Assembly (NCBI GenBank): GCA_949317995.1
Contig: OX439039.1
Coordinates: forward strand, 14,189,282 to 14,253,281
Reading direction: 5' to 3'
Origin: Acholoe squamosa
Lineage: Eukaryota; Annelida; Polychaeta; Phyllodocida; Polynoidae
Length of the DNA stretch: 64,000 nucleotides
Part shown: positions 23,049 through 52,788 of the stretch, piece by piece
Position numbering within the stretch: position 1 is the stretch's first letter
Layout of the letters: each line of letters begins with the position of its first letter
Notes under the pieces: generated by a model
What the model was told of the DNA's origin: nothing
The model's input: only the letters and a program-made list of their open reading frames with translations
Databases searched by the model: none
Position numbers and translations under genes: made by a program

Positions 23049-23054
23049 ACCATG
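23049..23054. repeat. Left 6-bp target site duplication of the Polinton
   Basis: ACCATG directly precedes the element's first base and is repeated at 53127-53132. Six-base duplications are the rule for Polinton/Maverick integration. Confidence 0.9.
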
Positions 23055-23361
23055 AGTAGTATAATAGATGGTCTTTTCTGAATATTATCCAGAAAAGACC
23101 ATCATATTTGGATTATCCAGAGAAGACCTCCTATTTTTAGATTATTTATAAAAGAGGTCGTTTATAGATATATTTAATTTATCTATAAAAGAGGTCGTTT
23201 ATAGATATATTTAATTTATCTATAAAAGAGGTCGTTTATAGATATATTTAATTTATTTATAAAAGAGGTCGTTTATAGATATATTTAAATTATCTATAAA
23301 AGAGGTCGTTTATAGATATATTTAATTTATCTATAAAAGAGGTCGTTTATAGATATATTTA
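23055..23361 (+). repeat. Left terminal inverted repeat
   Basis: The outer 90 bp match the right end base for base in nearly all positions. Inside follow about six copies of a 36-bp unit with ATAAAAGAGGTCGTTTATAG and ATATATTTA. A perfect 14-bp hairpin (23067-23080 with 23090-23103, 9-nt loop) lies 12 bp from the tip. The words AAGACC and GAGGTC recur. Confidence 0.9.
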
Positions 23362-23620
23362 GAATCCAGAAAAGACCTGTATTTTTGAGAAAATGTAGAT
23401 TGCAAGTGAAACGAGAAGTCATAATATTTTTATTTTTTCTTTATTGTTCTTTTTGAGACATATCATATAGTCAGACAATCCAACAGATAATCCAATTTAT
23501 TCCTTTATCGTTTATGAACAGAGAGGCGGAGAATGAGTTACAATAACAATGAATAACATAATTGGAATCTTCATGAATAATGTGATTCATTGAACCAATA
23601 CCATAGTAAATTTTCGTCAC
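23362..23620. other. AT-rich spacer between left TIR and first gene
   Basis: Lies downstream of the last minus-strand gene, so a transcription end is expected here. No further feature is seen. Confidence 0.4.
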
Positions 23621-24277
23621 CTAGTTCTTTGTTAGAATCAACTTTAAGAATTCCTCTAAAGACATTAATTCATTTTCGGAGGGGTCGATTTCATGAGAAC
23701 CTTTTTCATCGGTTGGTTCTTCTTCCGCCGAATAAAATTCTTGTTCTTCAGACGACGTTTCATCAGCTAAATGAGATTGTTCTATATCTGATTCTTCAGA
23801 CGAGTCACTTTCTCCAGAATCACTTTCTTCATAGTCGTTTTTTTCTTTCAATGAAGCAGATATCTTTTTGCCTGATCCAAAACCTTGATCATTTCTTTCG
23901 GTTTTATCAGGTGTATATACTTCTTCTAGCTCAGGGATGAGAATTTTTTCTAATATTATTTGAGCTATTTGATCTCCATGTTTTATTTCGAAGACCTCAT
24001 TTCCAAAATTAAACAGCAAAACACCAATTTTTCCCCTGTAGTCTTCTTCTATTACCCCTGCTCCTACATCGATGAAATGATTAAGAGCAAGTCCTGATTT
24101 TGGTGCTATGCGACCATAGCATCCTGCAGGTATGCAAAGTATTATATCAGTTTGTACCAATTTTTTTTCTTTAGCAGGAATAATATAATCATAAGCACTA
24201 TATAAATCAAACCCTGCAGATTTTTTTGTGGATCTGGTTGGCTTCAATGCTTTTGTTGATGCTTTAACATAATGCAT
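23621..24277 (-). CDS. dut: dUTPase with acidic C-terminal tail
   Basis: Trimeric dUTPase fold, hydrolysing dUTP to dUMP so that uracil is kept out of viral DNA. The five motifs are in order in the 218-aa protein: AGFDLYSA (21-28), GRIAPKSGLA (55-64), GVIEEDYRG (74-82), GDQIAQIILEKI (101-112) and QGFGSG (131-136). In motif 3 the residue normally Asp (GVIDxDYRG) is Glu, which may lower activity. The last 80 residues form a Ser/Asp/Glu-rich, presumably disordered tail not found in ordinary dUTPases. It is the last gene of the minus-strand series, 195 bp from the frameshifted paralogue. No TGAGA promoter motif lies close upstream. Confidence 0.93.
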   Translation of the reverse strand: MHYVKASTKALKPTRSTKKSAGFDLYSAYDYIIPAKEKKLVQTDIILCIPAGCYGRIAPKSGLALNHFIDVGAGVIEEDYRGKIGVLLFNFGNEVFEIKHGDQIAQIILEKILIPELEEVYTPDKTERNDQGFGSGKKISASLKEKNDYEESDSGESDSSEESDIEQSHLADETSSEEQEFYSAEEEPTDEKGSHEIDPSENELMSLEEFLKLILTKN

Positions 24278-24471
24278 AATAGGTTGGAGAATAGGTGAGG
24301 CAGGCAGTAAAGCAGATTTTTTTCATGTTGTTACTAACAGTGTATTTGGTTTGTCTTTTACAAGAGTAATATAGAAAGAATCTTGACAACGCGCCATTTT
24401 GCTGAACGTTATTTCAGTTGTTTTGTTGTTTAATATAACGCTATTCACAGAGATGTTTTCTTTGTTTTAGT

Positions 24472-24952
24472 TCATTTAAGACGGTCTTTGCTGTAATATT
24501 TAAGATTTTCATTGTAAATTTCTTCATATATTTTGCTGTAAGCTAATTGAGAGATTTTTTCACCTTTTTCAGTGTTTTCAAGCTTAGAACGTTCTTCTAA
24601 TTTTATAGGATAAAATTTTTTGTAAAACAAGTCGTGCAACAGCATCACCACTTTTTATTTTTAGGTCTTCTTCTCCGAAGTTAAATAAAACAATGGTAAT
24701 ATACCCTCTGTAATCTTCGTCTATTATTTTTTGGTTGATTAACACAAAGTTATGTTTTCTTGATTTGCATAGAGGTAAAATTATACCATAATAACCTTTA
24801 GGGATAGCAAGTTTAACTTCTGTTGTAATTGTACATGCTGTATTATTAGGAACAGTATGGTCATATGAACTGTACATTTGAATCCCTATGTTATTTTCCT
24901 CTTCAGTAGGAGAGAAGGAACCTGCTATTTTACTGTATTTTAGAACAGACAT
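24472..24952 (-). pseudogene. Second dUTPase-like gene, frameshifted and lacking active-site motifs
   Basis: The first frame (24952-24584, 122 codons) has the dUTPase fold signatures IGIQMYSSYD, a well-kept IIDEDYRGYITIVLFNFG and GDAVARLVLQKI. The motif 2 segment lacks the SGLA core, so the phosphate-binding Ser is missing. The frame ends at a stop at 24584, but a shifted frame opens at about 24604 and runs to a TGA at 24472, adding about 45 charged residues. The shift falls at an AAAA run. Motif 5 is absent in either frame. It is a duplicated dUTPase that had probably become non-catalytic before it was broken. In motif 3 it keeps the Asp that its neighbour has replaced. Confidence 0.75.
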
Positions 24953-25092
24953 TTTCGTTCAGTTTTATATGACATGATGTGATGCCTATTATTATTATTC
25001 TCAAGTAAGTAAATAACCAAACAAACAAAATGAAATAATTTTTTATATGATTTTATTTTGATTGTCACATGTGTAAAGACAGTTTTTCATTT

Positions 25093-25698
25093 TCAGTTTG
25101 TTCCTGTTCTTTTATCGAATTCAAGGAATATCATGTTTAGCACATCATTTCTTTTCATGTCGTATACTGCTTTCATCAGTTGATGAGTAGCACTGTACTT
25201 AGATCTTTGCCACATTTTTAAGACATTGAAGGTTAATTGAGCTATGTCTTGTTCGGGCTGGGACGATATTGTTCTTCTTTCGTCAGACGTGATATGTAGA
25301 TATGTAGCTATGTCCTTCCAGTCTCTTGACATTTTTTCACTCAATAAGCTGAAATACATTTGCACGGAGGTCGATTCCACGTCATACTCTTCTAGTTTTT
25401 TTTCTTTGAAGAAATTTTCAGTTAATTCCACCAAGTCTATTCTGTGGTTTTCCTTTAAACTTTTCATCAGTTCTTCTGTTCATAAGTAGTAAGGAACTTC
25501 TCTCCACCATTTATTCAGCATCTCTATGCCCATAGCAGTTGGAGTTTTTGTCTTGTTCATGCTTTCAAGTTTAGCATGAGGGATGCCAAGATATACTCCT
25601 AAGGTCATCCATTGACGTGCTAACGATACAGAGATTTTTTGAAGAAAGATATCTGAATATCCTAAATCATCTTGAAAGTAATAAGTAGGTAAAGGCAT
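25093..25698 (-). pseudogene. Tandem death-domain protein interrupted by an in-frame TGA
   Basis: Two death-fold modules lie one after the other. The first (ATG at 25698) has the helix 2-5 pattern LARQWMTLGVYLGIP and MLNKWWRE. A TGA at 25482-25480 then ends the 72-codon frame. The second frame (ATG 25467, 124 aa) is in exactly the same phase (77 codons on). Its first 20 residues look like the missing sixth helix of module 1, followed by a complete module 2 (LSEKMSRDWKDIATYL, LKMWQR, a final helix with KAVYDM). So one gene of about 200 codons appears split by a nonsense codon; readthrough cannot be excluded. Death domains assemble apoptotic and innate-immune complexes such as FADD, MyD88 or IRAK types. 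A viral copy would be expected to interfere with such assembly, but no target can be deduced. Confidence 0.72.
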
Positions 25699-25883
25699 TT
25701 TTTACCTTCAAAGGATTAGAGTGACAATCAAAAGTAGGAAAAGAAATAAATCAAAAATACATAAACCAATGATTTAAATAACACATGTACTTCCTCAACA
25801 ATATGTACTTATGAAGAACTTTAGATGCTCTTAACATGAGGCTTATATTTTATCTCAAGGAAGTAAAATTAAGTTCCAGACTG

Positions 25884-26099
25884 TTACAAAAAAGGTATAT
25901 CGGGTAAATGTATACTAAGCATAAATAGACATAATGACATAGAAGAAAAGAAAACAGGATAAAAGATTATAGTAGTTATTAATCCATATATGAAATAGTA
26001 TATAACGCTCATGAATCCATATGTAGTACAAAACAAAAGAAACAAAAACAAAAAAAAATTATATATTTTAAGACTATCAATATTTTTCTTTTTAATCAT
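25884..26099 (-). CDS. Small membrane protein, function unknown
   Basis: A 71-aa protein starting 7 bp after the upstream gene stops. After a Lys-rich start (MIKKKN) it is strongly hydrophobic, with two or three likely membrane segments (about residues 13-33, 35-50 and 52-66). No family is recognised. Tight spacing with the preceding gene supports reality; AT-rich DNA can give such frames by chance. A virion or host-membrane role is possible. Confidence 0.5.
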   Translation of the reverse strand: MIKKKNIDSLKIYNFFLFLFLLFCTTYGFMSVIYYFIYGLITTIIFYPVFFSSMSLCLFMLSIHLPDIPFL

Positions 26100-26106
26100 T
26101 TTTTTT

Positions 26107-26754
26107 TTATTTAGATAAGTTGCAAGACAAAATATCTTTCCACGAAGACAGATATTCTTTCACTTTTTCTTTATCTTCTTCAGTATATCTTTCTAAGTAT
26201 ATTGGATTTATGTCCAAAAAATTGGTGATAGAAAGATCTCCGTCTAAAATACCATGAACATTTATTTCTTCTGGCTTCAGATCTCGTTCTGCATGACAAG
26301 CTAACATGTCTATCACACTTTCAATTAAAGCATATTTTCTCATATTTCCTTCTCTGTAATATTCAGGATGATGATCATTGTTTTCATAGTGATGAAATAA
26401 AGCATTTTCCCAAGTTGTTTTTTCTTGAGAATTTTTTGGTCCATTTTTAGTATGGAACTTAAAGGTGTAACCTATGGCTTCTCTCATTGAAAACTTAGAT
26501 AAGTCATGCACCATTATTCGTTCTGTTAAACACATTTTATCTTTTTTGTCAAATACGTTTTCTAAAAGGTAAAAAGTGAAACATATCATTTGTCTATGCC
26601 TTAAAACCTGTTCGAAATGTTGCAAGAGAAGTTTCAAGAAAGAATTGTTGCAAGTTATTTTTTCTTTTTTAGATTTTATGTATTTAATGGCTATATCGTC
26701 TTCCCAGTTTGTGTGTTTCAACAGTTTTTTTATTTTAAAAGTGTACTTTCCCAT
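26107..26754 (-). CDS. DUF5662-like protein (HD-like metal-binding motifs)
   Basis: The 215-aa protein carries HDLSKFS (83-89), HHYENNDHHPEYY (121-133) and ESVIDMLACH (145-154). These blocks, an HDxSKFS followed by a HHYxxNxHHPEY box, are those of the DUF5662 family known from phages and large DNA viruses. The family has no established reaction; the His/Asp pattern suggests a metal centre similar to HD phosphohydrolases. All key residues are present. The stop lies 7 bp before the next gene, implying one transcription unit with the membrane protein. Confidence 0.75.
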   Translation of the reverse strand: MGKYTFKIKKLLKHTNWEDDIAIKYIKSKKEKITCNNSFLKLLLQHFEQVLRHRQMICFTFYLLENVFDKKDKMCLTERIMVHDLSKFSMREAIGYTFKFHTKNGPKNSQEKTTWENALFHHYENNDHHPEYYREGNMRKYALIESVIDMLACHAERDLKPEEINVHGILDGDLSITNFLDINPIYLERYTEEDKEKVKEYLSSWKDILSCNLSK

Positions 26755-26755
26755 A

Positions 26756-27004
26756 TCAGCGTAGTGTTCTGCTCATGAAGCCAGACAAAAGTTTCTCTTG
26801 TTTTTCTGTGATTCGTTGCACAAGAATATTATTTTTGTTTCCTAAAGATTTTATTATTTCTTGATTCTTTTTTCTCTCTGCTCTAAGAATGCGAAATTGG
26901 TTTTGTTGCCTTTTTCTTGTTTCTTCAAGGGTTTCTATCTTATGTATGCAATCAGGACACACCCCGTCTTCTAGCGAAGGCTTCCAATCAGAATAACTGT
27001 TCAT
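26756..27004 (-). CDS. Small coiled-coil protein with CxxC pair
   Basis: The frame is open from 27031, but that first codon is GTG; the first ATG is at 27004, giving 82 aa. It has CPDC near residue 16 followed by a long charged helix rich in Glu, Arg, Lys and Gln that should form a coiled coil. A TGAGATAA element (27051-27058 on the minus strand) is about 50 bp before this ATG, which supports the choice. The gene ends 1 bp before the DUF5662-like ATG. No family is recognised. Confidence 0.6.
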   Translation of the reverse strand: MNSYSDWKPSLEDGVCPDCIHKIETLEETRKRQQNQFRILRAERKKNQEIIKSLGNKNNILVQRITEKQEKLLSGFMSRTLR

Positions 27005-27074
27005 GTTACTTTGACGCAGATCAATGTTCACATAAAGTATGTTTGTTCACTTATCTCATCTATGTTTTTATTTC

Positions 27075-27524
27075 TTAATCACTTTCATGTTTTTTTTCTG
27101 AATTTAAATGAAAAGCTTCGTTTGGCTTATTCCTATAAGTCTCCATTAAAACATCAGAAGGCATAGAATCTGGCACATCACAAGTTTCGCCGTCTGCTAC
27201 AATTTTACTGCCTTCTTCTGAGTCATCACCGTCGGCTACTGTACGACCATACGGATAAGAACCTCTCCTGATGTTATATATTCTCTCTGCTTTAGCTAAG
27301 TTGTATGCCTTCCTGTGAGCCATTAAATTCATATTTTCATTTCGTGCTTCTCTTAATTGTAAAGTAAGATGGAGATTATTTTTTTCTTCCTCTTTTATGA
27401 TATTAATGTGTTCACGTCTTTCTTCTTCTAACAGAGATATATAAGTGCCTTGATGTAAGCATATTTTTTCAAGTATTTCATTGCGCTTTACTTCAAAAAT
27501 CATATTGTTCCCTTTTGTATCCAT
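27075..27524 (-). CDS. Coiled-coil protein of unknown function
   Basis: 149 aa. Residues about 28-85 are a charged helix with heptad-like spacing (EEERREHINIIKEEEKNN), the rest acidic and probably disordered. No family is recognised. A GTGAGACC version of the shared upstream motif lies 50 bp before the ATG and a second copy (CCTGAGATAC) about 90 bp before. Its place between capsid-region genes suggests a structural or assembly accessory; this is inference only. Confidence 0.65.
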   Translation of the reverse strand: MDTKGNNMIFEVKRNEILEKICLHQGTYISLLEEERREHINIIKEEEKNNLHLTLQLREARNENMNLMAHRKAYNLAKAERIYNIRRGSYPYGRTVADGDDSEEGSKIVADGETCDVPDSMPSDVLMETYRNKPNEAFHLNSEKKHESD

Positions 27525-27600
27525 GATTAAGACTTGAGAAATAATCTTAATTTATATATTTTTTTTAGGTCTCACACGAGAAAGATGTTCATTCTTATAA

Positions 27601-28077
27601 TTATTTGAGTATCTCAGGATCTTTTGTTTCTTCAGTGAATACATTTGAGTCGGGCAAATGTTCTTGATTTGCAATAGTAGTTAGTAATTGATTATTTTTT
27701 TCGTACATTATGTTATCAATATCTCGGTTTTCATTTATTTGAGTAGATTTTAAGTCATGGTTAGAAACAGAAGATCCTATGACAGGATATGTCCATGTTT
27801 TTCTGTGATTTACATTAGTTACAAAACAAGACAGGAAAGTTTGAGTTTTTTCATTGTTATGATAAATATTTCCGCTTTCTGTACAAGACAAAAATATTTC
27901 ATCTCCTTTCTGTAAAGAAGGGGAGATAGATTGTTTACGCGTTTCTAAGATAATGACTACGATGCTTAAAATAAGAGTAAAAACTATTCCTCCTGCTCCT
28001 ACTTTCCCGTTTGAAATCAAATTATTTATTTTGCTTAAACTTTTCATGCTTCGTTCTTTTGTTTCATGTTCGCTCAT
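27601..28077 (-). CDS. Single-pass membrane protein, function unknown
   Basis: 158 aa. A hydrophilic N-terminus of about 25 residues is followed by one membrane segment (about 27-46, with GGIVFTLILSIVVIIL) and a polar domain of 110 residues containing three Cys. There is no signal peptide, so a signal-anchor topology is likely. No TGAGA motif is seen upstream. Membrane proteins are common in this part of Polintons, but the role is not known. Confidence 0.65.
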   Translation of the reverse strand: MSEHETKERSMKSLSKINNLISNGKVGAGGIVFTLILSIVVIILETRKQSISPSLQKGDEIFLSCTESGNIYHNNEKTQTFLSCFVTNVNHRKTWTYPVIGSSVSNHDLKSTQINENRDIDNIMYEKNNQLLTTIANQEHLPDSNVFTEETKDPEILK

Positions 28078-28164
28078 TTTTTTAAAAAAAATATCTTTTT
28101 ATGATGATCAGTTCCAACAAATCGGCAAATAATTTCCAAGACAAGATGAAAAAGAAATAATACA

Positions 28165-28537
28165 TTAATCTTTTTTTCTTTTTTGTGTTGCTCTTAGAAA
28201 ATTATTTTTTGTAGAACAAATTTGTTTGTTACAAAACAAGGATTTCTTTTTGCTTTGATTATTTTGTTTTTTCTTTAAAAAGTATTGTTTTACTTTACTG
28301 TCATTCCAATCAGGATCTGAAGTGAAGCTAGATATAACTTGTTGCATTGTCTTATTCTCAGCTCGTTTTTCTAAAAAGAACAAGCAATATAAACCACAAG
28401 TTGTTGTCGGTGTTGACTACATAACCTGTAGGAAATGATTTCACTGCAGGTATAGTGTCAGCTGAATAAACACCATAATTTCCTCCTTTTTTTCTTTTAA
28501 TTTTCTGCAAGAAAAAATTTATTTCCGCTCCATTCAT
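28165..28537 (-). pseudogene. Adenain-type cysteine protease with internal deletion
   Basis: The frame from ATG 28537 gives the protease N-terminus, with GVYSADTIP and a strand ending VVNTD. Near 28400 another frame takes over and reads the catalytic-Cys segment, CGLYCLFFLEKRA (Cys codon 28398-28396), and the family's C-terminal helix to a stop at 28165. The two parts meet within about 15 bp, whereas the family normally has roughly 80-100 residues between them, including the catalytic His and acidic residue. So the middle was deleted, also changing the frame. The repeated ACAAC text at the junction suggests a microhomology deletion. An intact enzyme would mature virion proteins. A TGAGATTAG motif lies 59 bp before the ATG. 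Confidence 0.82.
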
Positions 28538-28546
28538 TTTAAGGAA

Positions 28547-29899
28547 TTATGCTGTTTCAGATTTTGCTCTTAATACATTGCTAGAATCTAATCTCAGGAG
28601 TTCATGATGTTCTAAATATACGATAGCTGCTACTCCATGGGTTAATTCTTCTTCTAGTTTTATGACAAATCCTAAAGAACCATTTTCTGAATATTCGAAT
28701 GTGCCTGACGTTATTCCGTTTTTAGATATGTCAAAACAGTAAAGACAATGTCCTTTTTTGAATTCGTCGAAAGAAATATCTATCGTATCGTCTCTGAAAA
28801 TTGAACCTGTAGACCGTATAAGAGCTAGGTAGGCCATATTGTATAAATCATTAGGGTAATCTAATTCATAGTGATAAAAAGGAGTTCCACCGTCGTTCAC
28901 TTTCAGTTCTATTTCCTTAGCTTTGAAGTGCTCAAATTGAAACGGATTACGATTATGACTTCCTGTAAAGGCATCTAAATGAACTAACCCTATGATGACT
29001 CTTTTTGGAAGAGGAGTGTTGTTCACTATATGAGAGGCTTGCAAAATAGATTTCTGAGGACCAAAAGTGACGTATTTCATGTCTATTTTGTTCACAGGAT
29101 AATCCCAATACGGAGTAACCATTCTAGCATCCATTATTTTTTTATGGAATTTTTCAGACACTCTTATTCTTTTTATGAATAAATGTATGCCCTGTATGTC
29201 TATTATGTATTTTTGTGTTCCTAATTTAGACATCAAACAAAAGTCTTCGTCTGCTCTATCAAATTCTATAGTAAGAGGCAGATCTCCAGGTAACACTTTG
29301 ACCTGAGCAAAAAGGTCATTATGAATTCGTCCTATGACTTCAAATAATTTCCCGTTTTTAGTTTTGTTATAACGTGCTTTCACTCCAGAATTATGATCGT
29401 CGCTGTTAACATTTGTTACTTTGTTGAAATCTTTATCGTCTTTGTAATACATAGCCAAAGCTCCCAAGTGTTTAGCAGTGGTTGGATCATAACTTAAAAT
29501 ATATTCCAGAATAGATCTATATCCGTGCAAATCATTGCTGTCTGATATTCGTATTCCTGCTATAGAAAGTTTCACATTTTTAAACATAGTAGAAGCAAAA
29601 TAATTCACTGGAAAAACTTTAGCTTTATCGTTTATTGTCCCATCGTTAGCTGGAGCATCTGGATTTTGTTTGTCAGCTTTTAATATTTTGCCAGACACTC
29701 GAATAAAACTGTCGTGCAAAGAAATGAAATCTGTATGTTTAGATTTTAAAGTGAATTGAACTGTAGTGCTGTTAGGAGAAGCAGTGGGCTCAACTTTTTC
29801 ATAATAAGTTTTAACTCTACTTATATCTGTTGGAGGAACATGAGTAAAATCAAATTCCGAGGCTACACAAAAACAAGGATCTTCGTCTAACAATGACAT
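28547..29899 (-). CDS. Major capsid protein, F54H12.2-like
   Basis: About 450 aa from MSLLDEDPCF (ATG 29899); the frame is open to an ATG at 29926, but the family begins near the later Met. The N-terminal pattern FDFTHVPPT, with YEKVEP, FTLKSKHTDFISLHDSFIRV and later ISDSNDLHGYRSILEYIL, is that of the F54H12.2-like proteins annotated in many invertebrate genomes. These are double-jelly-roll-type capsid proteins of Polinton-like viruses. No stop or frameshift is present. The gene is followed 9 bp on by the protease remnant. A CTGAGATTA motif lies 66 bp upstream of the chosen ATG. The assignment rests on pattern recognition, not a structural comparison. Confidence 0.8.
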   Translation of the reverse strand: MSLLDEDPCFCVASEFDFTHVPPTDISRVKTYYEKVEPTASPNSTTVQFTLKSKHTDFISLHDSFIRVSGKILKADKQNPDAPANDGTINDKAKVFPVNYFASTMFKNVKLSIAGIRISDSNDLHGYRSILEYILSYDPTTAKHLGALAMYYKDDKDFNKVTNVNSDDHNSGVKARYNKTKNGKLFEVIGRIHNDLFAQVKVLPGDLPLTIEFDRADEDFCLMSKLGTQKYIIDIQGIHLFIKRIRVSEKFHKKIMDARMVTPYWDYPVNKIDMKYVTFGPQKSILQASHIVNNTPLPKRVIIGLVHLDAFTGSHNRNPFQFEHFKAKEIELKVNDGGTPFYHYELDYPNDLYNMAYLALIRSTGSIFRDDTIDISFDEFKKGHCLYCFDISKNGITSGTFEYSENGSLGFVIKLEEELTHGVAAIVYLEHHELLRLDSSNVLRAKSETA

Positions 29900-29977
29900 T
29901 TTTTTAAGGTGATGAACAAACTTCAAAAATATTTGTTTGTTTTTCTCTTCTTTTCAGTAATCTCAGGTTATTTTATG

Positions 29978-30418
29978 TTAACCAAAGATATCTTTTTTGA
30001 AATTTCTTCTAAATCTATTTCTTTTTTTATTTGTGATCGTTTTATTAACTTTTCTTTTCTTGGTTACATGTGAAATAACTTCTTTGCCTAAATCAGACAA
30101 AGTTTCTTGAGCTTCTCTTTTTAAAGCTCGTTTAAAGTTTTCACCTTTCATGACATTTTTTGCTACTTTAATTCCTCCTGTTAAGGCTCTTTTTCCTATT
30201 CCTTTTGCAGCTGATGCCACAACAGGTTTCACCAAAGGAATAACTGTCTTAAACAATCCTTTTAAAATACCACCTAGCCCATAACCTTTTTGATTTCTGC
30301 TTCCTACGAAGGGGGTTAAAGAATAGTATCCTTTTCCATACTGTACATCATAAGGATAAGATCGCTTAGTTAAAAAATGTTTATAATATATATCTTCAGG
30401 TGAATCGTTAGAATACAT
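29978..30418 (-). CDS. pVI/pX-like amphipathic virion protein
   Basis: 146 aa. A short polar start is followed by a Gly-rich turn and an amphipathic stretch (GLGGILKGLFKTVIPLVKP, about 47-65), then alternating Ala/Gly/Lys helices and a very basic C-terminus (KKRNRFRRNFKK). Adenovirus pVI and pX and the matching Polinton proteins have this layout: they sit under the capsid and can disturb membranes. The motif TGAGATAAA lies 38 bp before the ATG, with a second GAGATAAA 14 bp further. Its position just before the capsid gene fits the Polinton order. Confidence 0.7.
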   Translation of the reverse strand: MYSNDSPEDIYYKHFLTKRSYPYDVQYGKGYYSLTPFVGSRNQKGYGLGGILKGLFKTVIPLVKPVVASAAKGIGKRALTGGIKVAKNVMKGENFKRALKREAQETLSDLGKEVISHVTKKRKVNKTITNKKRNRFRRNFKKDIFG

Positions 30419-30469
30419 TTTGATGTATTTTTATTTATTTTTTTTGATTTATCTCAAAACAATTTATCT

Positions 30470-31498
30470 CTACCAGTCAGATGCCCATTCCTTAGAAGAA
30501 TATCTTGGGTTTTTTTTGGTTCTTCTTCCAGATCGAGTAGAATAAGGTGACAGCTTTCCTGACAAATTTTTGTTTGTTTTAATTTTCCCGAAGACGTCTT
30601 CTTGTGGGCTTGGGTAAGATATTTTTACGTCTCTTTCTTTGCTGGGTTGCTTTTCTTCGAAAGGGAGAGGAGGGATATTTTTTATTGGAGTTTTCACTAT
30701 GCCTCCGCTGGCTTCTCCTATTTTGTCTTCTTCATTTTCAGAAAGATAGTCGGTGTCGTTATTTTTATCTTCAGTATCTTCTGTAGTTGTTTTTTTCAGA
30801 AGGGGCTTTTCTTTTTCTTGAAGAAGAGTTTCATCCAAATTGCCGTCTTCAGAAAATTCATCGTCTGTAGCATCTGTAGAATAATTGCTTTCATTTCTTT
30901 GTTTGTCTTCCATGTTTTGATCTTCTAAAGGATATTTTTTTATGATATAAGGACGATTGTTTTTTTTAGTTATTTTTGGCTTATTTAAAAACCACGATTT
31001 AGGAATATGATTAGATATATTAACCCAAAGTTCTTCTGTTCCTATAGGTTCTGTTTTTATGCTTGCATTTGAAAAGAATTTCATGATGCTTATCACATTA
31101 GAATTTCTGATTAGTTTACCTCTGATGATAATTTCACCATGTTCATTCCATAGATAGTTCAGTTCTATCATTTTTTTGAGAATTTCTTTTATGTAAGGAA
31201 TTTGTGCTTGTCTTATGTTGGATAAGATCTCAAGTATTGATATACCTGGTATTATTTCTTGTTTTTTTTCTGTAGGAGCAGAATACATGAAAGCCGAGTC
31301 TTTAGCTATATTTTGATTTGTGCTTAATATCTTATACGGTTTCACGTTATACATTCTTTGCGCTAATAATTCTTGTTGCCTTTCGAGAGCAGGATTTTTT
31401 TCTTGGTCAGTGTTTTTTTCATTAGCATGATTTTTTGCTGAAGATAATTTTTTGTAAGTTGCTAAAGGTATAACTATACTTTTTTTGAAGCTAGCCAT
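30470..31498 (-). CDS. Conserved Polinton protein of unknown function
   Basis: 342 aa from MASFKKSIVIPLATYKKL (ATG 31498; an upstream in-frame ATG at 31516 gives six extra residues overlapping the previous stop). A helical region (about 95-115), then a compact segment with WNEHGEIIIRGKLIRNSNVI (about 140-160), resembles a hypothetical protein that recurs in metazoan Polinton-like elements. The second half is acidic and Ser/Lys-rich. The end reads TRSGRRTKKNPRY. No TGAGA motif precedes it closely; it starts 5 bp after the previous stop. A minor virion or scaffolding role is a guess. Confidence 0.65.
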   Translation of the reverse strand: MASFKKSIVIPLATYKKLSSAKNHANEKNTDQEKNPALERQQELLAQRMYNVKPYKILSTNQNIAKDSAFMYSAPTEKKQEIIPGISILEILSNIRQAQIPYIKEILKKMIELNYLWNEHGEIIIRGKLIRNSNVISIMKFFSNASIKTEPIGTEELWVNISNHIPKSWFLNKPKITKKNNRPYIIKKYPLEDQNMEDKQRNESNYSTDATDDEFSEDGNLDETLLQEKEKPLLKKTTTEDTEDKNNDTDYLSENEEDKIGEASGGIVKTPIKNIPPLPFEEKQPSKERDVKISYPSPQEDVFGKIKTNKNLSGKLSPYSTRSGRRTKKNPRYSSKEWASDW

Positions 31499-31502
31499 AA
31501 TA

Positions 31503-31973
31503 TTAATTTTTTGCACCTGCCAATCCTCCTATTAAGGACACTGCTAAAGGGAGGAGAAGAGAGAGAAATCCACCTTTTTGTTTTAAAACTGCTTTCCTTT
31601 TTTTGTTATTCACACGTCTATTAATAAGATATCTTAAAGTGTTCTTGTATTTTTTTAACTTTGAATAAGACACTGAATTTAATTTAATGTTTCCTGTAAG
31701 AACATTAAAAATGCACTGACATATAGAATCTAAATCTTCTTTATCTGCATATTCTATTAACAAATCTCTTTTTCTTTTGTTTTTTGTGTTTCCTAACATT
31801 GTCAAAAAAGCTAATCTTTTGACTGATCTGATGTTTGCTGCTTTCTTCTTGATTTTTCTTTTTGGTCGTTTGTAGCTAGTTCTTTTTTTTCTTTTTGCTA
31901 CAATTGATTTCTTTTTTATTGTTTTTTTGCCTTTTCTTTTAGAAACAGGCATTTTTTTCTTTAACGGTGGCAT
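31503..31973 (-). CDS. Basic core-like protein with hydrophobic tail
   Basis: 156 aa. The first 50 residues are almost half Lys/Arg (KRKGKKTIKKKS), expected for DNA binding. A middle helical segment (ICQCIFNVLTGNIKL) and an LKKYKNTLRYLINRRV block follow. The C-terminus is QKGGFLSLLLPLAVSLIGGL, a hydrophobic or amphipathic tail. The same arrangement recurs in invertebrate Polinton-like elements, where its function is unknown; DNA condensation in the virion, like adenovirus core proteins, is plausible. A GTGAGATT motif lies 61 bp upstream. Confidence 0.7.
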   Translation of the reverse strand: MPPLKKKMPVSKRKGKKTIKKKSIVAKRKKRTSYKRPKRKIKKKAANIRSVKRLAFLTMLGNTKNKRKRDLLIEYADKEDLDSICQCIFNVLTGNIKLNSVSYSKLKKYKNTLRYLINRRVNNKKRKAVLKQKGGFLSLLLPLAVSLIGGLAGAKN

Positions 31974-32076
31974 TCTTATAAATCAACTTTCACACAAAAA
32001 CTTTTATTTTTTTCATATATTTTATTCAATCTCACGAACTTTATGTTGGTTCATACATGTATAATTGTTTTCTGTT

Positions 32077-32739
32077 TTATGTTTTGTTAGGTATATACAC
32101 CTCTTGTCCTATGTCAAATATGTTGCTCCTAAATCTGTATTCTTGAGGAGTTTTTTGATGACCATCTATTAAAAGATAGGAATGTGGTTTCCTAGTTGCT
32201 TCATTGAAAATATTAACGAAAGTTTTATAATTTTTAGGCAACAGTTTTCTCCCTAATGTTAGAGGGACAGTTTGATCTAAAGGTGAATTAAAAATAACTA
32301 AATACGTCGCATTTCTATTAACAGTTTGCCTTTCTTTTCCTTCAGAATAATAATTTTGTGAAATATATATAACATTTATCGATTCATGATGACATGTTTG
32401 AGTGAAAAGTTTTCCTATTTCAGGATTATTTCCACATTCTTTCATTAAATCATCTAAAATAACAAGTCCATTAAGGTCAGGTTTTATATATTTATCAAAA
32501 GAAGAAGGAATACCGTTCAAAAATGTTATGCTTTTCCCCTCCATGAAGTCTTTTTTAGCAGGAGGGGTTTGACCATAACACCATATGACATAGTCTATTT
32601 TTTTTTCTATTATTCGCTCATTATTTTTTAAAAGATCATACACAAAAGTAGTTTTTCCACTGTTGCTTGGTCCTGCTATGATCATAGAAAATGGAATTCT
32701 AATACATGCATTGAAAACAGGGAATTCTATGTCTTCCAT
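32077..32739 (-). CDS. DNA-packaging ATPase (A32/FtsK-HerA type)
   Basis: 220 aa. Walker A is AGPSNSGKTTF (about 22-32) and Walker B is GLVILDDL (about 90-97). A following block with SINVIYISQNYY contains the sensor Gln expected in the A32-like clade. The C-terminus (PHSYLLIDGHQKTP) is typical of the Polinton and giant-virus enzymes. It drives genome entry into the preformed capsid. The frame is complete. It starts 3 bp after the integrase stop, so the two are likely cotranscribed. Confidence 0.92.
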   Translation of the reverse strand: MEDIEFPVFNACIRIPFSMIIAGPSNSGKTTFVYDLLKNNERIIEKKIDYVIWCYGQTPPAKKDFMEGKSITFLNGIPSSFDKYIKPDLNGLVILDDLMKECGNNPEIGKLFTQTCHHESINVIYISQNYYSEGKERQTVNRNATYLVIFNSPLDQTVPLTLGRKLLPKNYKTFVNIFNEATRKPHSYLLIDGHQKTPQEYRFRSNIFDIGQEVYIPNKT

Positions 32740-32742
32740 TTT

Positions 32743-33687
32743 TTATTTTCCTTTTATTTTGTTTAATTCTTCTTTATAAAAACTACCACTCAATATTTCA
32801 TTATTTTTGTCTGTTAACACATAAGTAGCAGGCCACGTTCTAAGAACATATGCTATTTGAAAAATTTCTTCTTTCCAATGAGAAGAATACCCTCTTCTGA
32901 AAGCAGTCTTATATTTACTTATTCGTACTTTATCTCCTACTTTAAAAGGCAGTTTAATTTTTTTGCTGTACAAATATTTTCCGTATTGCTTTAACCATAT
33001 TTTTTTTTCGTTTGATTTGGTTACTTCAGAAGGACTTATTCCTAATGTTCTATGTTTACTATGATTATAACTTTTAACTAAATCCTGTAGAACGTCTATA
33101 TATCTCAGACTCTTTTTGAAAGAAAGATATTTATATATTTTGTCTTGTATGGTACGATTGAATCTTTCTACTATAGCACATTTAGTGTCTTGAGAAGTAC
33201 TGAAAAATTTTATTTCATTTTCTTTTAAAAAATTTTGAAAAACACCTTTAAATTCGCTTCCTTCATCTAATTGTATTAAGTTGGGCTTAACATTGCTTTT
33301 TAACAAAATTTTTTTGAAGCCGTCTAGAGTGACATATGCAGTTTTGTTCACTAAAGGTTCAACATAAGCATAACGTGAAAAACAATCTATACAGGCTAAT
33401 AAATATTTTATTCCATTGTTTTGATCTTTAAGGTTAAAAATACTTATTAAATCAATTTGCCATTGATCGTTTATGCCTTTCACTATTGTTTTTCTTCGAA
33501 GAAATTTATATATTATTTTCTTATGTGAAGTATAAGTTCTAGTGTTACGGAGAAAATTTAGCACGTCCTTTCTCGTTATATTTTCATCTATTTTTTTAGC
33601 TGCTTCATATAATTTTTTCACAGAAGAAAAAGATGAAGGATGAGAAGGAGTGAAATAAATTTTTTTCAAAATATTTTCTTTGTCCAT
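32743..33687 (-). CDS. Retroviral-type (DDE) integrase
   Basis: About 314 aa from MDKENILKKIYF (ATG 33687; open to an upstream ATG at 33714). The rve core carries the acidic triad in WQIDLISI, IQLDEGSEF and an AIVERFNRT box with the Glu. The second motif has Leu-Asp in place of the more usual Thr-Asp. An N-terminal helical domain precedes the core. After it come SKHRTLGISPSE and an SH3-like or chromodomain-like C-terminal part (PFKVGDKVRISKYK, WPATYVL). It would insert the element with the 6-bp target duplication seen at its borders. No disabling change is seen. TGAGATGG lies 45 bp before the chosen ATG. Confidence 0.93.
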   Translation of the reverse strand: MDKENILKKIYFTPSHPSSFSSVKKLYEAAKKIDENITRKDVLNFLRNTRTYTSHKKIIYKFLRRKTIVKGINDQWQIDLISIFNLKDQNNGIKYLLACIDCFSRYAYVEPLVNKTAYVTLDGFKKILLKSNVKPNLIQLDEGSEFKGVFQNFLKENEIKFFSTSQDTKCAIVERFNRTIQDKIYKYLSFKKSLRYIDVLQDLVKSYNHSKHRTLGISPSEVTKSNEKKIWLKQYGKYLYSKKIKLPFKVGDKVRISKYKTAFRRGYSSHWKEEIFQIAYVLRTWPATYVLTDKNNEILSGSFYKEELNKIKGK

Positions 33688-33714
33688 GTTTGAAAAATAT
33701 TTGCTTATGAACAT

Positions 33715-34190
33715 GAAAATAGAACCATCTCAGAGTAGTAGGTGATATAATTTTTAATGAATGAACGACATCTTTTGCAACAGCATTCAGACAAAACATT
33801 TTTCACAACATTTTTAAATAAATGAATGACACAACTTTTTTCGTGCACGCGAAACAAAATGGAAATCCGATACGCGTCCATTCCAAGAAAAAAAAGGTAG
33901 AGACATATTTTATCCCCTTATGAGTTGAGCAAGAGCACAAATTTCTCTTTCGAGATGTACTTTTTGCTGACACATAGGTTTTAAAATATATGTACCATAA
34001 AAAACTTGGCATTAGCGCAAGTTCCTCCATTGAGGTGTACTTTCTGCCAATGCATAAATTCACAGAATGGGGCATATTAGCACAGATTTTAACCCATTTT
34101 TACGCGTGAAAAAAGTCATTAAATGCAATGCAAGTTTCCGGATTTCCGTGAAAAAATGAAACAAAAAAATCTTTTTGCCTTATAAAAGAA
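33715..34190. other. Intergenic gap with a degenerate direct repeat
   Basis: Two related blocks (about 33930-33970 and 34012-34055) share AGCACAAATTTCTC/AGCGCAAGTTCCTC-type text followed by GAGATGTACTTT or GAGGTGTACTTT and TGCTGACACATA or TGCCAATGCATA. A 90-codon frame covers them, but I see no protein signal. It is the widest gap in the gene-dense part, so regulatory or terminator functions are possible. Confidence 0.4.
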
Positions 34191-34193
34191 ACA

Positions 34194-34787
34194 TTATTCT
34201 ATAGCATAGATATTAGTGTATATAGGAATAAACCCATCAGGTATTCTAGTTTGGTTTGTGTTAGTTCCTGTAGTTTTTTGTGCATGTTTTCTTACGTTTC
34301 CGGTTTTCTTCAACACAGTTTTACCTTTAGTGGAACAAATAGTTTTCTGTTTTTTTCCTTTCTTGACTTCTTTTTCTTCTTTCTCACTTTCTTCATCTTC
34401 TGTCATGCTAGTCCCTGCTTTTCTTTTATTTCTTTTTTTGCTTCGATTTTCATTTTCGTCTTCAGGCAAAGGAGAGGCTGTCAGGTTGTCTTTTCCTTCT
34501 GATTCTTCGGAGCTAGAGTTTTCTGTGTCGCTGATTTTTTCGTCGATAATTAGCTTCAATTTATTTTGAGCAGACTTAGCTTTATTCCTCATTTTTTCTT
34601 TGAGATATTGTGTATGGCATGAATTACATCTCAAATGATTTTCGTCAGCAGAAAAATAATGGAGAGAATGAAAAGGTTTATGACACCTTATGCATTCTTG
34701 AACCATGCTTTTTTGACATTTTTCACAATATTTTTTATCTTGAACTATTCTCCCTTTTCTTCCACAATATTCACACTTAACAGGCAT
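34194..34787 (-). CDS. Double zinc-ribbon protein with acidic/basic tail
   Basis: 197 aa from MPVKCEYCG (ATG 34787). The frame is open to 34901, but that would overlap the previous gene and place the TGAGATGA motif (85 bp upstream) inside the coding region. Two four-Cys sites are visible: C5-x2-C8 with C21-x2-C24, then C32-x2-C35 with C54-x2-C57. The rest is low-complexity, first Ser/Glu-rich, then Lys-rich with nuclear-localisation-like KKRNKRK and KKGKKQK. A nucleic-acid or transcription role is likely. I do not recognise a named family. Confidence 0.7.
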   Translation of the reverse strand: MPVKCEYCGRKGRIVQDKKYCEKCQKSMVQECIRCHKPFHSLHYFSADENHLRCNSCHTQYLKEKMRNKAKSAQNKLKLIIDEKISDTENSSSEESEGKDNLTASPLPEDENENRSKKRNKRKAGTSMTEDEESEKEEKEVKKGKKQKTICSTKGKTVLKKTGNVRKHAQKTTGTNTNQTRIPDGFIPIYTNIYAIE

Positions 34788-34881
34788 TTTATGTATATTT
34801 TTATCTAATTCAAAACAAAGATACTTTGACCGTAGATATCTTGTAATCTTTTTTGCTGTAGCTCTCATCTCACTAAGGTTT

Positions 34882-35202
34882 TCAATCGCTGTCACTGTCA
34901 CTAGAGGCTATGTTATCGTCGCTGCTGCTGTCGCTATGAGACTTTGATTTTTCTTTCTTTTTCTTAGTGTTCTTAGTCTTTCCAGGCTTTTCTTCTTCAC
35001 TCATTTTTTTAATTTTATCTATTTTTTTATCTATTTTATTCCTTAGTTCAAAGAGTAAATCATATTCTTCTTTAAGGAGAGAAATACTTTTGTCTTTTAC
35101 CATATCATGAAAATGTAAGTATATTTTTCCTTTGAATTTATTTATGTCTATTCTTTTCCTTTTGCCAAAAGCTAAAGTAGGATATTTAGATGATTTACTC
35201 AT
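34882..35202 (-). CDS. PC4-like ssDNA-binding/transcription cofactor
   Basis: 106 aa. Residues about 10-60 match the PC4/Sub1 fold: FGKRKRIDINKFKGKIYLH (beta strands), then KDKSISLLKEEYDLLFEL (strand and helix). The remainder is a charged, Ser/Asp-rich tail; in cellular PC4 the acidic Ser-rich part lies at the N-terminus instead. PC4 binds single-stranded and melted DNA and supports transcription or replication. Located just downstream of polymerase B, it may be a replication partner. TGTGAGATAAAG lies 48 bp before the ATG. Confidence 0.75.
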   Translation of the reverse strand: MSKSSKYPTLAFGKRKRIDINKFKGKIYLHFHDMVKDKSISLLKEEYDLLFELRNKIDKKIDKIKKMSEEEKPGKTKNTKKKKEKSKSHSDSSSDDNIASSDSDSD

Positions 35203-35225
35203 TTTGTTTGTTTGCAGATAGTTTG

Positions 35226-38200
35226 CTATTGTATTTTTGTCTTTATCTCACAAACTTTTCTTCTTTTTGAATGAATATCTTCAAATGGAATTTCTTTCAT
35301 TTTTCTTTTTAAAGGGGGAATCTTATAATGACCATATGCGTAAGATTTAATTCCTCCTCTTCTCAAATATCTTTTATCTTCAAAAGGAGAAAGAGATATC
35401 TTTCTTTGAGACATAGTGTACACTTTGTGTTTTATGCTTCTTATGTTATCGAATTCTGCTTCTTTTATTCTATTTTGGACTAAGGTAAGCTTAAAGTCGT
35501 TGTGCCTTATAGTTTCTATGCTACTTTTTTTGACTCCCTTTATTTTTTTCTCTTCTTCCCCCTTCTCAAACAAAATTGAATACATTTTTGGCCTGAGAGC
35601 TATAAATTCTTTTATTTTTTTCCCTCCTGCTTCATCTTTAAATTTACCTAAGACCTTTTTGTTCGTTTCATCATACAAAAAATGATCTTTAGGTAAATTA
35701 GAAAAATCAAAAAAATTATTTAGATCTTTTATTTTTTTAAGATAATTTGTATCTTTTATGTAATACACTAAAGAATCTGTGTCTGTATATAACAGTTGAA
35801 TATGTACGTCTTTGAATTTAGGCAACATGATATTATAATGGAAATTAAACATCCATAGTTTAGATAACTCTAAAACAGAAAACCCAATGTAGATCGGTTT
35901 GTCTAGTAAAAGTTTTTCTTTGCTGCTTTGTATTCCTACAAAGTCCTTTTGAAATATATGAAGAGATTTAAAAGTAGGTTTTTTTATAAGATTTTCACTT
36001 TCTTTAGGGTCTGAAGTTAATTTCATGTTAGTTCTTTTCTTGACATTTTCCATTGTTTTACCAAATGCTGCATTATTTAATAACTTAAAGAATTCTTTTT
36101 CGAAAGCAGAGGTAGCCAAAGTTCGTTCTCTGTTATTGAACAAAATGTAAGATTTCATCCAATCTTTCTGATGAAAGCTTAAAACACGATGAATTTTATT
36201 TATTTAATGCAAGGTATAATTTTAAATTACGATAATGCACTACATAATTTTTTTTGTCTTTTAAATTGCATATAAGCTTTTTTCCTCCTTTTTTGTAGGA
36301 CGTTTCAGTTTTTTTCAATATTTCTTTTGCATACGGAGATAATTCTTGTTCTTCTATTTCTATTTTTTGTGGAGCTAGAGGAAAATCGTTGTGCATGTCA
36401 TGAAGACAGTCAGGGTAAGTTAAACTTACCTCCAGTATGTATCCTGTTTCATTATGATCTGAAATGCTTTCTATGTTTAGTTTTTGAATTTGATTTTGGG
36501 TTAGCCATTTGAAATTTGAGTGAGGCAAAAAATCTGCTAAACATTTGCCGTAAAGGTTATTGCAGTCTATGTAAAAGATGATTTCGTCGAAAGAATTAGC
36601 TTTCGCATACCTATGAGAAACATTAGTAATGCCACCTCTTATACCGCCTTCTATAAAATTATATATTTCGATGTCAGAAAGCAACTCTAGTTCAACTTCT
36701 GTATGTTTCAACATAGCTTGATAACTCAAACTAGGTGCCGTTAGAAAATGAGCAGGGTCTAAACCGTAATAACTTAAGGCCTTTTCTCTGAAAGATTCAA
36801 AAACGTCACATAAAAGCAAAACGTCTATTTTCAAGTAGGCTTTCAAATAATCTTTTATGTTTCTACATTTTAATGCTTTAAACATATGAATAGCATGACA
36901 GTAATCGTCCTCAGTTATATTTTTTTTGGTTAAAGTAGAATAAAATTTGTCTATAGGCGGCAATTTTTTTTCTTTCAAAACAGACCAAGAATCAATGTAA
37001 TCATAGCACATGACACCTTTTCTTATCATATAAGGAATCATTTTTTTGTTTGAAGTATGTTTTTTTGTTTGAACGAAATCTTTTAAACCTTTCTCTTGCA
37101 AAAGTTCAGCTAATTTTGAAAGGGACGTAGGTAAAAATTGGAAGGAATCTATAATTCTAAAATTTTCGAAACTTAAAGTAAGAAATTTTTCAGATGATTT
37201 AGCAATCACAGATATGGTTCTCTGGTTTATATATTTATATAATTTTTGGATAAGAAAATGAGTGTCATAATTCATGCTGTTGTGAATTATAATTGGTATT
37301 TTTAAATTGTCCATCCTAAGACTAGTGTAAGTAAGATTACATCTATTGCAAGCATAATTTAAATCTCTTCCTTTTCCTTCTTGTCCTATGTGAGCATGAT
37401 CTAAAACTTTTCTTATACCTTTTTCGGTGAAAGATATCCCACATATGTAACAATTTTTTTGCTTCACTATATGTGAAATATCGTCAGAAGACAAAGACAA
37501 AGGTTTTCTCTTATGATCTAAAATATACGAAATTTCAGCTCTTTTTTTATATAAGTAAGAAACAAATTTTTCTATCACATTTTTTCCTACGTATATAACA
37601 GGATCTTGACTGTATTTTTCATATTTAGAAATTAATATAGCTCCAAAAGCATTTAATTTGTGTTCTTTTGAGCAACACGATTTCCCTTTGTATATTTTGC
37701 TTATAGTGCGATTATAACATTCAAAATCTGCATATATCACAAAAGGACTTTTAACTTTAAATTTATGGTCAACGAATTTCAAGAAAGTCCCTTTCGGTGG
37801 AGTAGAATAACCCTGACCACTGTATACGTTAGTTTTGCAATTGTTGTTAACATGCATTTCATATTTTTTTTTTGAGCAAAATGATATCAAACATTTGTAA
37901 CAAAAGTACCTAGTTTTTTTCCAAAAGAATGGTCTGATAAATTTATGTAAATTTCTGATAAGATAATAGTGATCATTAAATAATAATAAATCAATATGTC
38001 TTCCTTCAGTAAGGGGAGAAGAAAGGACTGAAATATACATAGGGAAAGGCTGAAATTCTTTTTTTTCAGATACTAAAAGGCCAAAGACATTTACAGTAAG
38101 ATTATTTTTCTTTTCGAACTTTGGAATTTCACTCAATTTCACAGGAAAAGAAAGAAAAGAAAGGTTTAATTTTTCTAAAAAAATATCGTACGACTTAGCC

Positions 38201-38733
38201 AAGTTTGCATTGTGAGGAATTTTATGTAATCCTGCTAAAACAGAGTATATGAAGCATTTTTTGCCGCTTCCTTTTATATTAAGAACTGATTTTTTTCTTT
38301 GAATAATGCTTTCTTTCCCTTTTTTCTCACCTCCAAAAGGATTATATTTAAAAACAGAGAGGCGTAACACTTTTATTTCTCTTAAAAACCATCCTGACCC
38401 CATGTGCAAAAAAGCATCGAAAAAACCTAATATCACAGAAAAGGAATTTCTTATTAATTCCTCTACGTTATGAGAATCAAAGTTTACTTGAACAGGACTT
38501 TGGAACCATGGTTGAATTTCAAAATATTCATTGTTTTCTAGATTATATTTTCCTAACACTGTGCATAACGATAATTGAAATTTAACCCCCCCTTCTTTTT
38601 TTTTTTTCTTCAAAATTAATTTTTTAATTTTTTTGGTCTGATTAAGTAAAAATAAATCAGGATCATATTTGTGAAGAGTAGGAGTTAAATCATATTCTAC
38701 GATTAAATTTCTGAAAGCTTTACTTTTTTTCAT
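35226..38733 (-). pseudogene. polB: Protein-primed DNA polymerase B, split by a frameshift
   Basis: The first frame (845 codons, 38733-36196) has an N-terminal part with KCFIYSVLAGLH, a Cys/His finger (about 277-299), exonuclease motifs YADFE (334-338), HNSMNYD (484-490) and YLKIDVLLLCD (633-643), and polymerase motif A IDCNNLYG (722-729). An endonuclease VII-like CxxC...CNRC insert lies at 428-465. It ends at a stop in a TAAATAAATAAA tract. The following codons in another frame lead without gap into the second frame (310 codons from 36158) with motif B KLLNNAAFGKTMEN and motif C YTDTDS. Total length (about 1,165 codons) is normal for Polintons. So one gene has been disabled by a small indel in a slippage-prone tract, or the assembly has an error there. 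It overlaps the upstream gene by 14 bp. Confidence 0.93.
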
Positions 38734-39676
38734 TTCTTATAGGTCTAAAATGAAGAACTAAAAAAACTGTTCCATATTCAAATTGAACCAACTTTCCCAC
38801 ATCGTCACATATAGTTATTTCGATTTCTTGTATTTCACTTTTTTTTACCTTTTTATAGTACGGAGAGACAAAAACTTCCTTTATATCGTCTCCGAATTTT
38901 TCACTGCAACGAATAGTTCTCAATAAAGGAATTTGAAGATCGCCTACAATTTCATTTGCAACTATATCAGTATAAATATAAATATTAGAAGAAACGTGAT
39001 GCAAATTAGGAACACCTCCCGCATGAAAATATTTATAATGTTTGTATCTTAAAGTAGTGCTCATTAAAATCTGAAAATCTAATAAACTATTCAATGGAAG
39101 CCCTGAAAAAGTTATAACGTCACTGTTTTCGATCTCAGCTTCGTTGTCTATTTCTTCAGATGTATCCAATCTCAGTACATTACTTAAATATTTAGACATA
39201 AGAACTTTGTCTCCTCTCCCTACCTTTAAAATGGGTTTTAAATTTTGCAGCTCAGTTTTCACATATGGTTCTCTACTTTTTCGAAAAAATTCATCGTCAG
39301 GGTATGCGTCTATTTTTTTCAAGGCTGCATTTATGCTTTTTATTAAACTATCTAAAGAAGTATAATTTCCATATGGAATTTTTTGCACGACATATCTTTT
39401 TTTTATTTCTATTTCATCTAATGAAGTTATTTTATTCACGTCTTGCTTCAACCTGAAATCTTTTCTTTCTACTACCAAAGTCCTATTTTTTTCTGGAATT
39501 TCTGGGAAATTATACCAGGAAACTGGTATGTTTACTTCTACTAATCCCACTTCCCATTCTCCTTGTAAAATTAAAATAGAAGGTAATTTAACCCAAAATT
39601 TGCTTGTTTTGTTTTCTCGAGAGGGATGAATAGTATTAGAAGGTAAATTAATGTAAAAAGGAGAAGAAACATTCAT
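38720..39676 (-). CDS. Penton-position structural protein (candidate minor capsid)
   Basis: 318 aa from the ATG at 39676. The frame is open to 39772, but the conserved start is SPFYINLPSN right after this Met, and TGAGATAAG lies 70 bp upstream, inside the longer version. The N-terminal pattern FYINLPSN...KFWVKLPSIL...GEWEVGLVEVNIP and C-terminal FEYGTVFLVLHFRP are shared by a protein found beside the polymerase in many metazoan Polinton-like elements. Its beta-rich appearance and constant presence make it a candidate penton-like minor capsid protein; this is inference. Frame intact. Confidence 0.65.
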   Translation of the reverse strand: MNVSSPFYINLPSNTIHPSRENKTSKFWVKLPSILILQGEWEVGLVEVNIPVSWYNFPEIPEKNRTLVVERKDFRLKQDVNKITSLDEIEIKKRYVVQKIPYGNYTSLDSLIKSINAALKKIDAYPDDEFFRKSREPYVKTELQNLKPILKVGRGDKVLMSKYLSNVLRLDTSEEIDNEAEIENSDVITFSGLPLNSLLDFQILMSTTLRYKHYKYFHAGGVPNLHHVSSNIYIYTDIVANEIVGDLQIPLLRTIRCSEKFGDDIKEVFVSPYYKKVKKSEIQEIEITICDDVGKLVQFEYGTVFLVLHFRPIRNEKK

Positions 39677-39775
39677 TTTAAAAATATATCTTATTTTTAA
39701 ACAATAAAATCTTTTTTTGATAACTTTGAAAGTATTTCTTATCTCAGGGAAAAAAAACCACTGGTGGCTCATATG

Positions 39776-40660: not shown

Positions 40661-40725
40661 TATATGTTATAAAATATTTCATTTTTAAAATGTAACATAA
40701 GACAAAAATATTTGTTTCAAACTTT

Positions 40726-41310: not shown

Positions 41311-41351
41311 ATAAAAAGACAGGAAATAATCAGCGAAATATACAAGCGCCT

Positions 41352-41552
41352 CTACTTTGATTTTTTTAACCGTGGCAAAGAATCAAAATAAGACAAAGCC
41401 GAAATAATTTGTTCAGCTTCCTTGACTGACATATAAGGCTGGGAAGGAAAACTGACATCTATTATATCCTTTTCGTTGTCTTTGAAATGTATTCTACCTT
41501 CGAAATAAGAAATTCTAGTTTTTAATAGTTCATAATTAATTTTTATGATCAT
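41352..41552 (-). CDS. Small hypothetical protein
   Basis: 66 aa, with an amphipathic helix-like VKEAEQIISALSYFDSL and a basic end. No family is recognised. It is the first ORF of the minus-strand series. CCTGAGTTTG, a near match to the shared upstream motif, lies about 50 bp before the ATG, which favours a real gene. It and the RING frame differ in phase and are 41 bp apart. Confidence 0.45.
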   Translation of the reverse strand: MIIKINYELLKTRISYFEGRIHFKDNEKDIIDVSFPSQPYMSVKEAEQIISALSYFDSLPRLKKSK

Positions 41553-49280: not shown

Positions 49281-49336
49281 AATGCTGCTCCCAAGTGCCT
49301 AATGCCCAAGTGCTCAGTGTCCATGTACCTTTTATA
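49274..49336 (-). promoter_or_regulatory. Candidate promoter-leader-splice donor module 2
   Basis: On the minus strand TATAAAAGG (from 49336) is followed by a leader and GCAAA/GTGAGT (GT at 49275-49274), and then TGTTTCTATGTT, like the TGTTTCTATATT after module 1. A further TATATAAGG lies at about 49390-49400 in a tandem copy of the same block. Confidence 0.35.

Positions 49337-52756: not shown

Positions 52757-52788
<32 letters not shown>

Follow-up and report, generated by a model that had tools for sequence, protein, structure and literature searches.

Two small reading frames on the minus strand at positions 25093 to 25698 of a 64,000-nucleotide stretch from Acholoe squamosa (contig OX439039.1; the whole stretch is called the window here) lie within a Polinton, share one phase and are separated by a TGA. 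The locus raises the question of whether these are two genes, one gene read through its stop or one gene that has been broken, and what the product of an intact version would do. The two pieces are one gene with two death domains. Taken jointly, this gene, its Polinton context and the private inactivation of the window copy are regarded as close to certain.

Read from 25698 down to 25093, the minus strand shows a 202-codon reading frame with a single internal stop besides the terminal TGA, confirming the original prediction of two pieces in the same phase around one TGA at 25482-25480. The remaining five frames of the interval contain 10 to 23 stops each, and the fewest stops found in 20,000 mononucleotide shuffles of the gene is 4; a chance reading frame is thus a poor account of the locus and is rejected. 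The gene frame ranks first of the six by codon-usage score both in piece 1, upstream of the stop, and in the stretch downstream of it. It comes second in death domain 2 (0.07 versus 0.11), and the score is not decisive. The AATAAA motif, with 48 occurrences in 19 kb on the gene's strand, is too frequent to serve as a marker of the gene end.

The product is predicted to be a protein of ∼201 residues with two death domains and nothing else recognizable. Death-domain patterns had been proposed for both modules, and profile searches agree: the post-stop piece matches the Pfam family Death (PF00531) with an E value of 2e-10 and 41.1 bits, above the curated cut-off of 22.6, and all five complete natural open reading frames (ORFs) scanned contain two Death stretches. 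Piece 1 alone shows a weak match (E value of 0.015; 15.9 bits; profile positions 7 to 53 of 86), so that a profile search of the separate pieces, as first suggested, succeeds for the second and stays below the cut-off for the first. Death domain 1 by itself exceeds the cut-off in the sister subfamilies B (23.0 bits) and D (30.9 bits) and falls below it in A (16.0 bits), C3 (19.4 bits) and C (22.2 bits; the closest intact copy). No DED, caspase, kinase or TIR match is found in the five natural ORFs. Pfam returns no match for the 40-residue post-stop stretch alone, and a search of PDB sequences with piece 1 retrieves no death domain. The death-domain piece has no relatives in IMG/VR and none in the protein database at an E value of ≤0.001. 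BLASTP of piece 1 against piece 2 gives a weak result, and the profile comparison of the two domains reaches a probability of 95.6% at 20% identity.

The single-sequence fold of piece 2 is poor (predicted local distance difference test score of 45), and an alignment-based fold was used instead. This model of death domain 2 shows a six-helix death fold with the FADD death domain as the top structural match, as anticipated for module 2, at a sequence identity with FADD of 14 to 23%. Extension of the profile with FADD and ankyrin death domains yields 546 proteins, and the 120 matches listed consist of FADD, ankyrin and other death-domain proteins without a name. In sequence, death domain 2 resembles the death domains of animal signaling proteins.

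The two sides of the TGA were placed with a small hidden Markov model (HMM) made from five PDB-derived death domains. Piece 1 occupies positions 4 to 50 of this model and the stretch right after the TGA positions 62 to 79, with scores equaled by shuffles in 4/3,000 and 5/3,000 cases, respectively. The gap between the two blocks is filled exactly by nine residues and the stop codon, one position per residue; with this register, the stop falls in the loop that joins helix 4 to helix 5 in death domain 1. The structural model of the post-stop stretch contains helices at residues 2 to 11 and 16 to 25, where its confidence is low. The residues after the stop, formerly taken for the end of module 1, do complete it with helices 5 and 6, and the TGA therefore falls inside this module, not between the two modules.

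A search of the genome (1.48 Gb; 63 contigs) reveals nearly perfect matches to the 606-bp gene at at least 40 places including the window (the best 40 of 452 first-look candidates). All seven other copies that were fetched read as one open 201-residue frame, and the window's stop occurs in 0/7; being the top matches, they form a biased sample. A less biased sample was drawn with a PolB probe, which gave 39 places other than the window among the best 40 of 427 candidates; 14 places without a partner among the forty gene matches were picked, and 6 of these were fetched. Here, the death-domain gene is open in five copies and frameshifted in one, and the five open ones lack the window's stop. The comparison of related Polinton copies at the TGA that the original prediction called for thus shows frames open through the site in 7/7 and 5/6 copies. 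The reading as two distinct genes, with the stop conserved between them, is rejected. The Pfam scan has 27 rows with a profile range of 2 to 82 and 40.9 to 42.4 bits, which comprise the subfamily of the window and its nearest kin; 22 of them are open for at least 202 amino acids, and the other five, the window among them, are shorter. At 40.9 bits, and without a 90%-identical place on C9, the proportion is 17/19, with the window as one of the two exceptions. The shorter copy L049 shows a gap relative to the window's gene and does not share its stop. Distinct places other than the window with a relative of death domain 2 carry an open frame of at least 200 residues in 34 of 37 cases (exceptions L049, L034 and L021); the window copy, L014, three repeated stretches and two hits truncated at the ends of L040 do not enter this count.

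The element in the window carries two further breaks. Its second dUTPase comprises 122 amino acids, compared to 159 in 7/7 sister copies, and its PolB frame is broken near 36.16 to 36.20 kb, where 3/3 fetched sister copies are open. Absent from the seven fetched copies and the five open PolB-chosen copies, the window's stop is private among the copies examined and, judged from these sequences, probably recent. The window copy has very probably been inactivated, and probably recently, by a nonsense change within death domain 1, with the gene intact in most sister copies examined; the stop may also be an assembly error. The window copy would produce at most a shortened death-domain-2 protein, started from the downstream ATG at 25467. 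The original prediction had left the choice between new inactivation and readthrough; the first is favored by the sister copies and the two additional breaks. Stop-codon readthrough or recoding of the TGA would fit a frame that is otherwise open across the stop, but the stop is missing from 7/7 other fetched copies and from the open PolB-chosen copies, and the gene's own terminator is also TGA. An Rfam scan of the window, with families that presumably include SECIS, found no family at threshold. A functional TGA is extremely improbable and is rejected on the grounds that related copies do not keep the stop (0/7).

The seven fetched sisters are 98.2 to 99.6% identical to one another over ∼3.6 kb, an indication of recent amplification that is qualified by the choice of the closest copies. 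More distant versions of the gene emerge from the PF00531 genome scan (best 150 of 1,881 candidates), which contains further repeated death-domain ORFs. Among these 150 rows, 48 belong to group A (profile range 6 to 82) and 54 to group B (4 to 83; ∼42 to 43 bits), labels that follow the profile range and were checked in the fetched loci only; two group A rows have an internal stop. The fetched A loci (L015 to L017 and L022 to L039) show a dUTPase beside the gene in 21/21 cases and a DUF5662 gene in 20/21. The position between DUF5662 and dUTPase is also found in subfamilies of the same genome at ∼75% and ∼54% identity, and longer stretches contain the capsid gene in 2/4 A and 4/4 B loci, with a gene order that matches the window. 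In nine fetched death-domain loci, none of the genes from the window's element is found; these loci may belong to the host. A distant relative at C3:46030798-46031451 is 36% identical in death domain 2. A divergent capsid gene (21.9% identity; 3.4e-16) lies ∼9 kb away in the opposite orientation and is likely part of the same element; on the other side, a weak integrase match (3e-5) falls within a long ORF reading like a retrotransposon. The ratio of nonsynonymous to synonymous substitutions (dN/dS) between subfamilies is 0.07 to 0.18, with both domains conserved, which indicates purifying selection on the gene. On balance, the evidence favors an accessory gene of this Polinton lineage, old there and maintained by purifying selection. 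Two observations on copy number and arrangement stand apart from this argument. The 452 first-look candidates of the gene probe and the 427 of the PolB probe hint at a large, recent amplification of Polintons in this genome. At G000:C4:196296-203222 (L029, L030 and L040), two A copies separated by ∼6.5 kb face each other, their dUTPase ends pointing inward, which would fit a pair of elements inserted tail to tail.

The Polinton setting, already proposed for the gene, is established by terminal inverted repeats, a 6-bp target-site duplication, PolB, an rve-type integrase and an A32-type ATPase, and the element at 23055 to 53126 is a complete Polinton in which the capsid-type gene is assigned by its relatives only (Table 1). 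Both inverted repeats start with the same 16 bases. The capsid-type gene has an open frame and six relatives in the protein database, all without a name; tested as a double jelly-roll capsid protein, it shows no match in Pfam or PHROGs. No adenovirus-type protease was matched by Pfam among the ORFs scanned, which are a subset of those of the element. Scans of viral contigs with the capsid, the ATPase and the capsid alignment found none, and a scan of prokaryote genomes with the integrase gave a single weak match, in a bacterial metagenome-assembled genome.

Table 1. Coordinates of the Polinton, the death-domain gene and neighboring features in the window
Feature	Position	Strand	Evidence or remark
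Left target-site duplication, ACCATG	23049..23054		
Whole Polinton, 30,072 bp	23055..53126		Terminal inverted repeats and 6-bp target duplication
Left terminal inverted repeat (310 bp), contains 37-bp tandem units	23055..23364		294/310 positions match right repeat
dUTPase, open	23621..24277	-	Pfam dUTPase 1.4e-41
Second dUTPase, frame lost near 3' end in window copy	24584..24952	-	Pfam 4.1e-20
ORF from first post-stop ATG (124 aa), with unbroken death domain 2	25093..25467	-	ORF list
Death domain 2	25129..25359	-	Pfam Death 2e-10; six-helix model, best structural match FADD death domain
Helices 5 and 6 of death domain 1, downstream of stop	25408..25479 (end approximate)	-	HMM positions 62-79; predicted helices
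In-frame TGA	25480..25482	-	Helix 4-5 loop of death domain 1; none in other copies examined
Gene piece 1 (72 aa): start codon and helices 1-4 of death domain 1	25483..25698	-	Pfam Death 0.015, below cut-off; local HMM positions 4-50
DUF5662 protein, conserved upstream neighbor of death-domain gene	26107..26754	-	Pfam 7.5e-23; synteny
Capsid-type gene	28547..29926	-	Read by eye as major capsid protein; six relatives, 31-62% identity
Packaging ATPase, A32 type	32077..32739	-	Pfam Pox_A32 2.1e-06, 27.8 bits versus cut-off 22.8
Retroviral-type integrase	32743..33714	-	Pfam rve 1.5e-10
DNA polymerase B gene (PolB), frame broken near 36.16-36.20 kb	35226..38733	-	Pfam DNA_pol_B_2 1.6e-18
Right terminal inverted repeat	52817..53126		
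Right target-site duplication, ACCATG	53127..53132		

The element shares PolB, the retroviral-type integrase, the A32-type ATPase, a capsid-type gene, terminal inverted repeats and the 6-bp target-site duplication with Polintons/Mavericks and adintoviruses but adds the conserved tandem death-domain gene. In plan, the protein resembles the viral FLIPs, which herpes- and poxviruses encode with two DEDs in tandem; these are likewise small viral proteins with two death-fold domains and little else. In contrast to these, the Polinton protein contains Death (PF00531) and not DED (PF01335) in 5/5 natural ORFs, and the hosts and the virus group differ. FADD combines a DED with a death domain, whereas the Polinton protein combines two death domains with no DED match in the same five ORFs. 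A viral fold search names an iridovirus CARD protein and a Marseillevirus death-domain protein, both weakly (E values of 4.2 and 0.43); these proteins have other lengths and belong to other virus groups.

Death domains act by homotypic assembly. The simplest role of a short protein that consists of two such domains would be to cap host assemblies or to compete with them, as the tandem-DED viral FLIPs do. A part in host apoptotic or innate signaling, as originally suggested, is inferred from the fold. The twin domains could dock on a host assembly of death domains, for instance of the FADD, MyD88/IRAK or Tube/Pelle type, at its ends or on its surfaces, and a protein without an effector domain would then cap this assembly or compete with it, which would delay cell death or NF-κB-type signaling during replication of the element. 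Such a decoy mechanism, argued from the fold, has about an even chance of being correct. The explanation as a whole, from the accessory gene to the decoy, is considered fairly probable. The main rival is an activating, vFLIP-like role, in which the twin protein would nucleate a pro-survival NF-κB-type complex in the infected cell. The vFLIP of the Kaposi virus activates NF-κB via IKK, and the Polinton protein offers two recruitable death folds, both conserved and unaccompanied by any other visible domain. Neither an effector motif nor a kinase-binding one was found, however, and activation is considered unlikely.

Two other roles are less probable still. The death fold might serve as homotypic glue in the element's own replication or assembly complexes without any host target, which the strong conservation across subfamilies also fits; the resemblance of death domain 2 to animal signaling death domains, as expected for a host-derived domain, speaks against this and makes it rather improbable. 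Slightly less credible is a protein that promotes late host cell death for particle release. A single death domain can nucleate death complexes, and the retained open capsid-type gene makes particles conceivable, but elements persisting in the germline would pay a cost. Returning to the decoy, a more far-reaching version would see the protein as a viral "DD-FLIP", a near-core gene of the whole Polinton lineage whose product would cap host assemblies and so help a provirus-like element to outlast reactivation in its host. The gene would then have spread through no fewer than three amplified subfamilies and would be shared with a far more distant Polinton-like element; this version is tentative and holds distinctly less credence than the decoy mechanism itself.

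Viral death-fold proteins are already known, and the death folds taken by viruses comprise DED, CARD and PYD. A tandem death-domain gene would add to this list. A term search of the literature, with the founding paper on adintoviruses outside its coverage, found no report of a Polinton that conserves a tandem death-domain gene, none on death domains in virus-like Mavericks and none on tandem death domains in invertebrates. The word "death" is absent from the main text of PMC11071296. It is an unsettled matter whether Polintons continue to live as viruses in animals. A gene in which host-signaling modules are the only recognizable domains, with a dN/dS of ∼0.1 between subfamilies, suggests recurrent contact with host defense and not plain transposition. 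The same genome offers many near-identical copies together with several divergent subfamilies for study.

Further features of the window accompany these results. Two diverged dUTPase genes adjoin in the element (23621-24277 and 24584-24952), and the same pairing is found in subfamilies A and B. An ORF at 40726-41310 shows a weak RING-like match (zf-RING_2, 0.028; below the cut-off) and could be a further host-interaction gene. The right third of the element is rich in tandem repeats, with long arrays of 180-bp units at 43171-47367 in which blocks of ∼1.3 kb repeat at 99% identity, and the sole ORF of at least 100 amino acids past 41.3 kb within the element is repetitive and 123 amino acids long. 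In the flank, an ORF at 57872-58294 resembles, by eye, a fragment of a Penelope-type reverse transcriptase.
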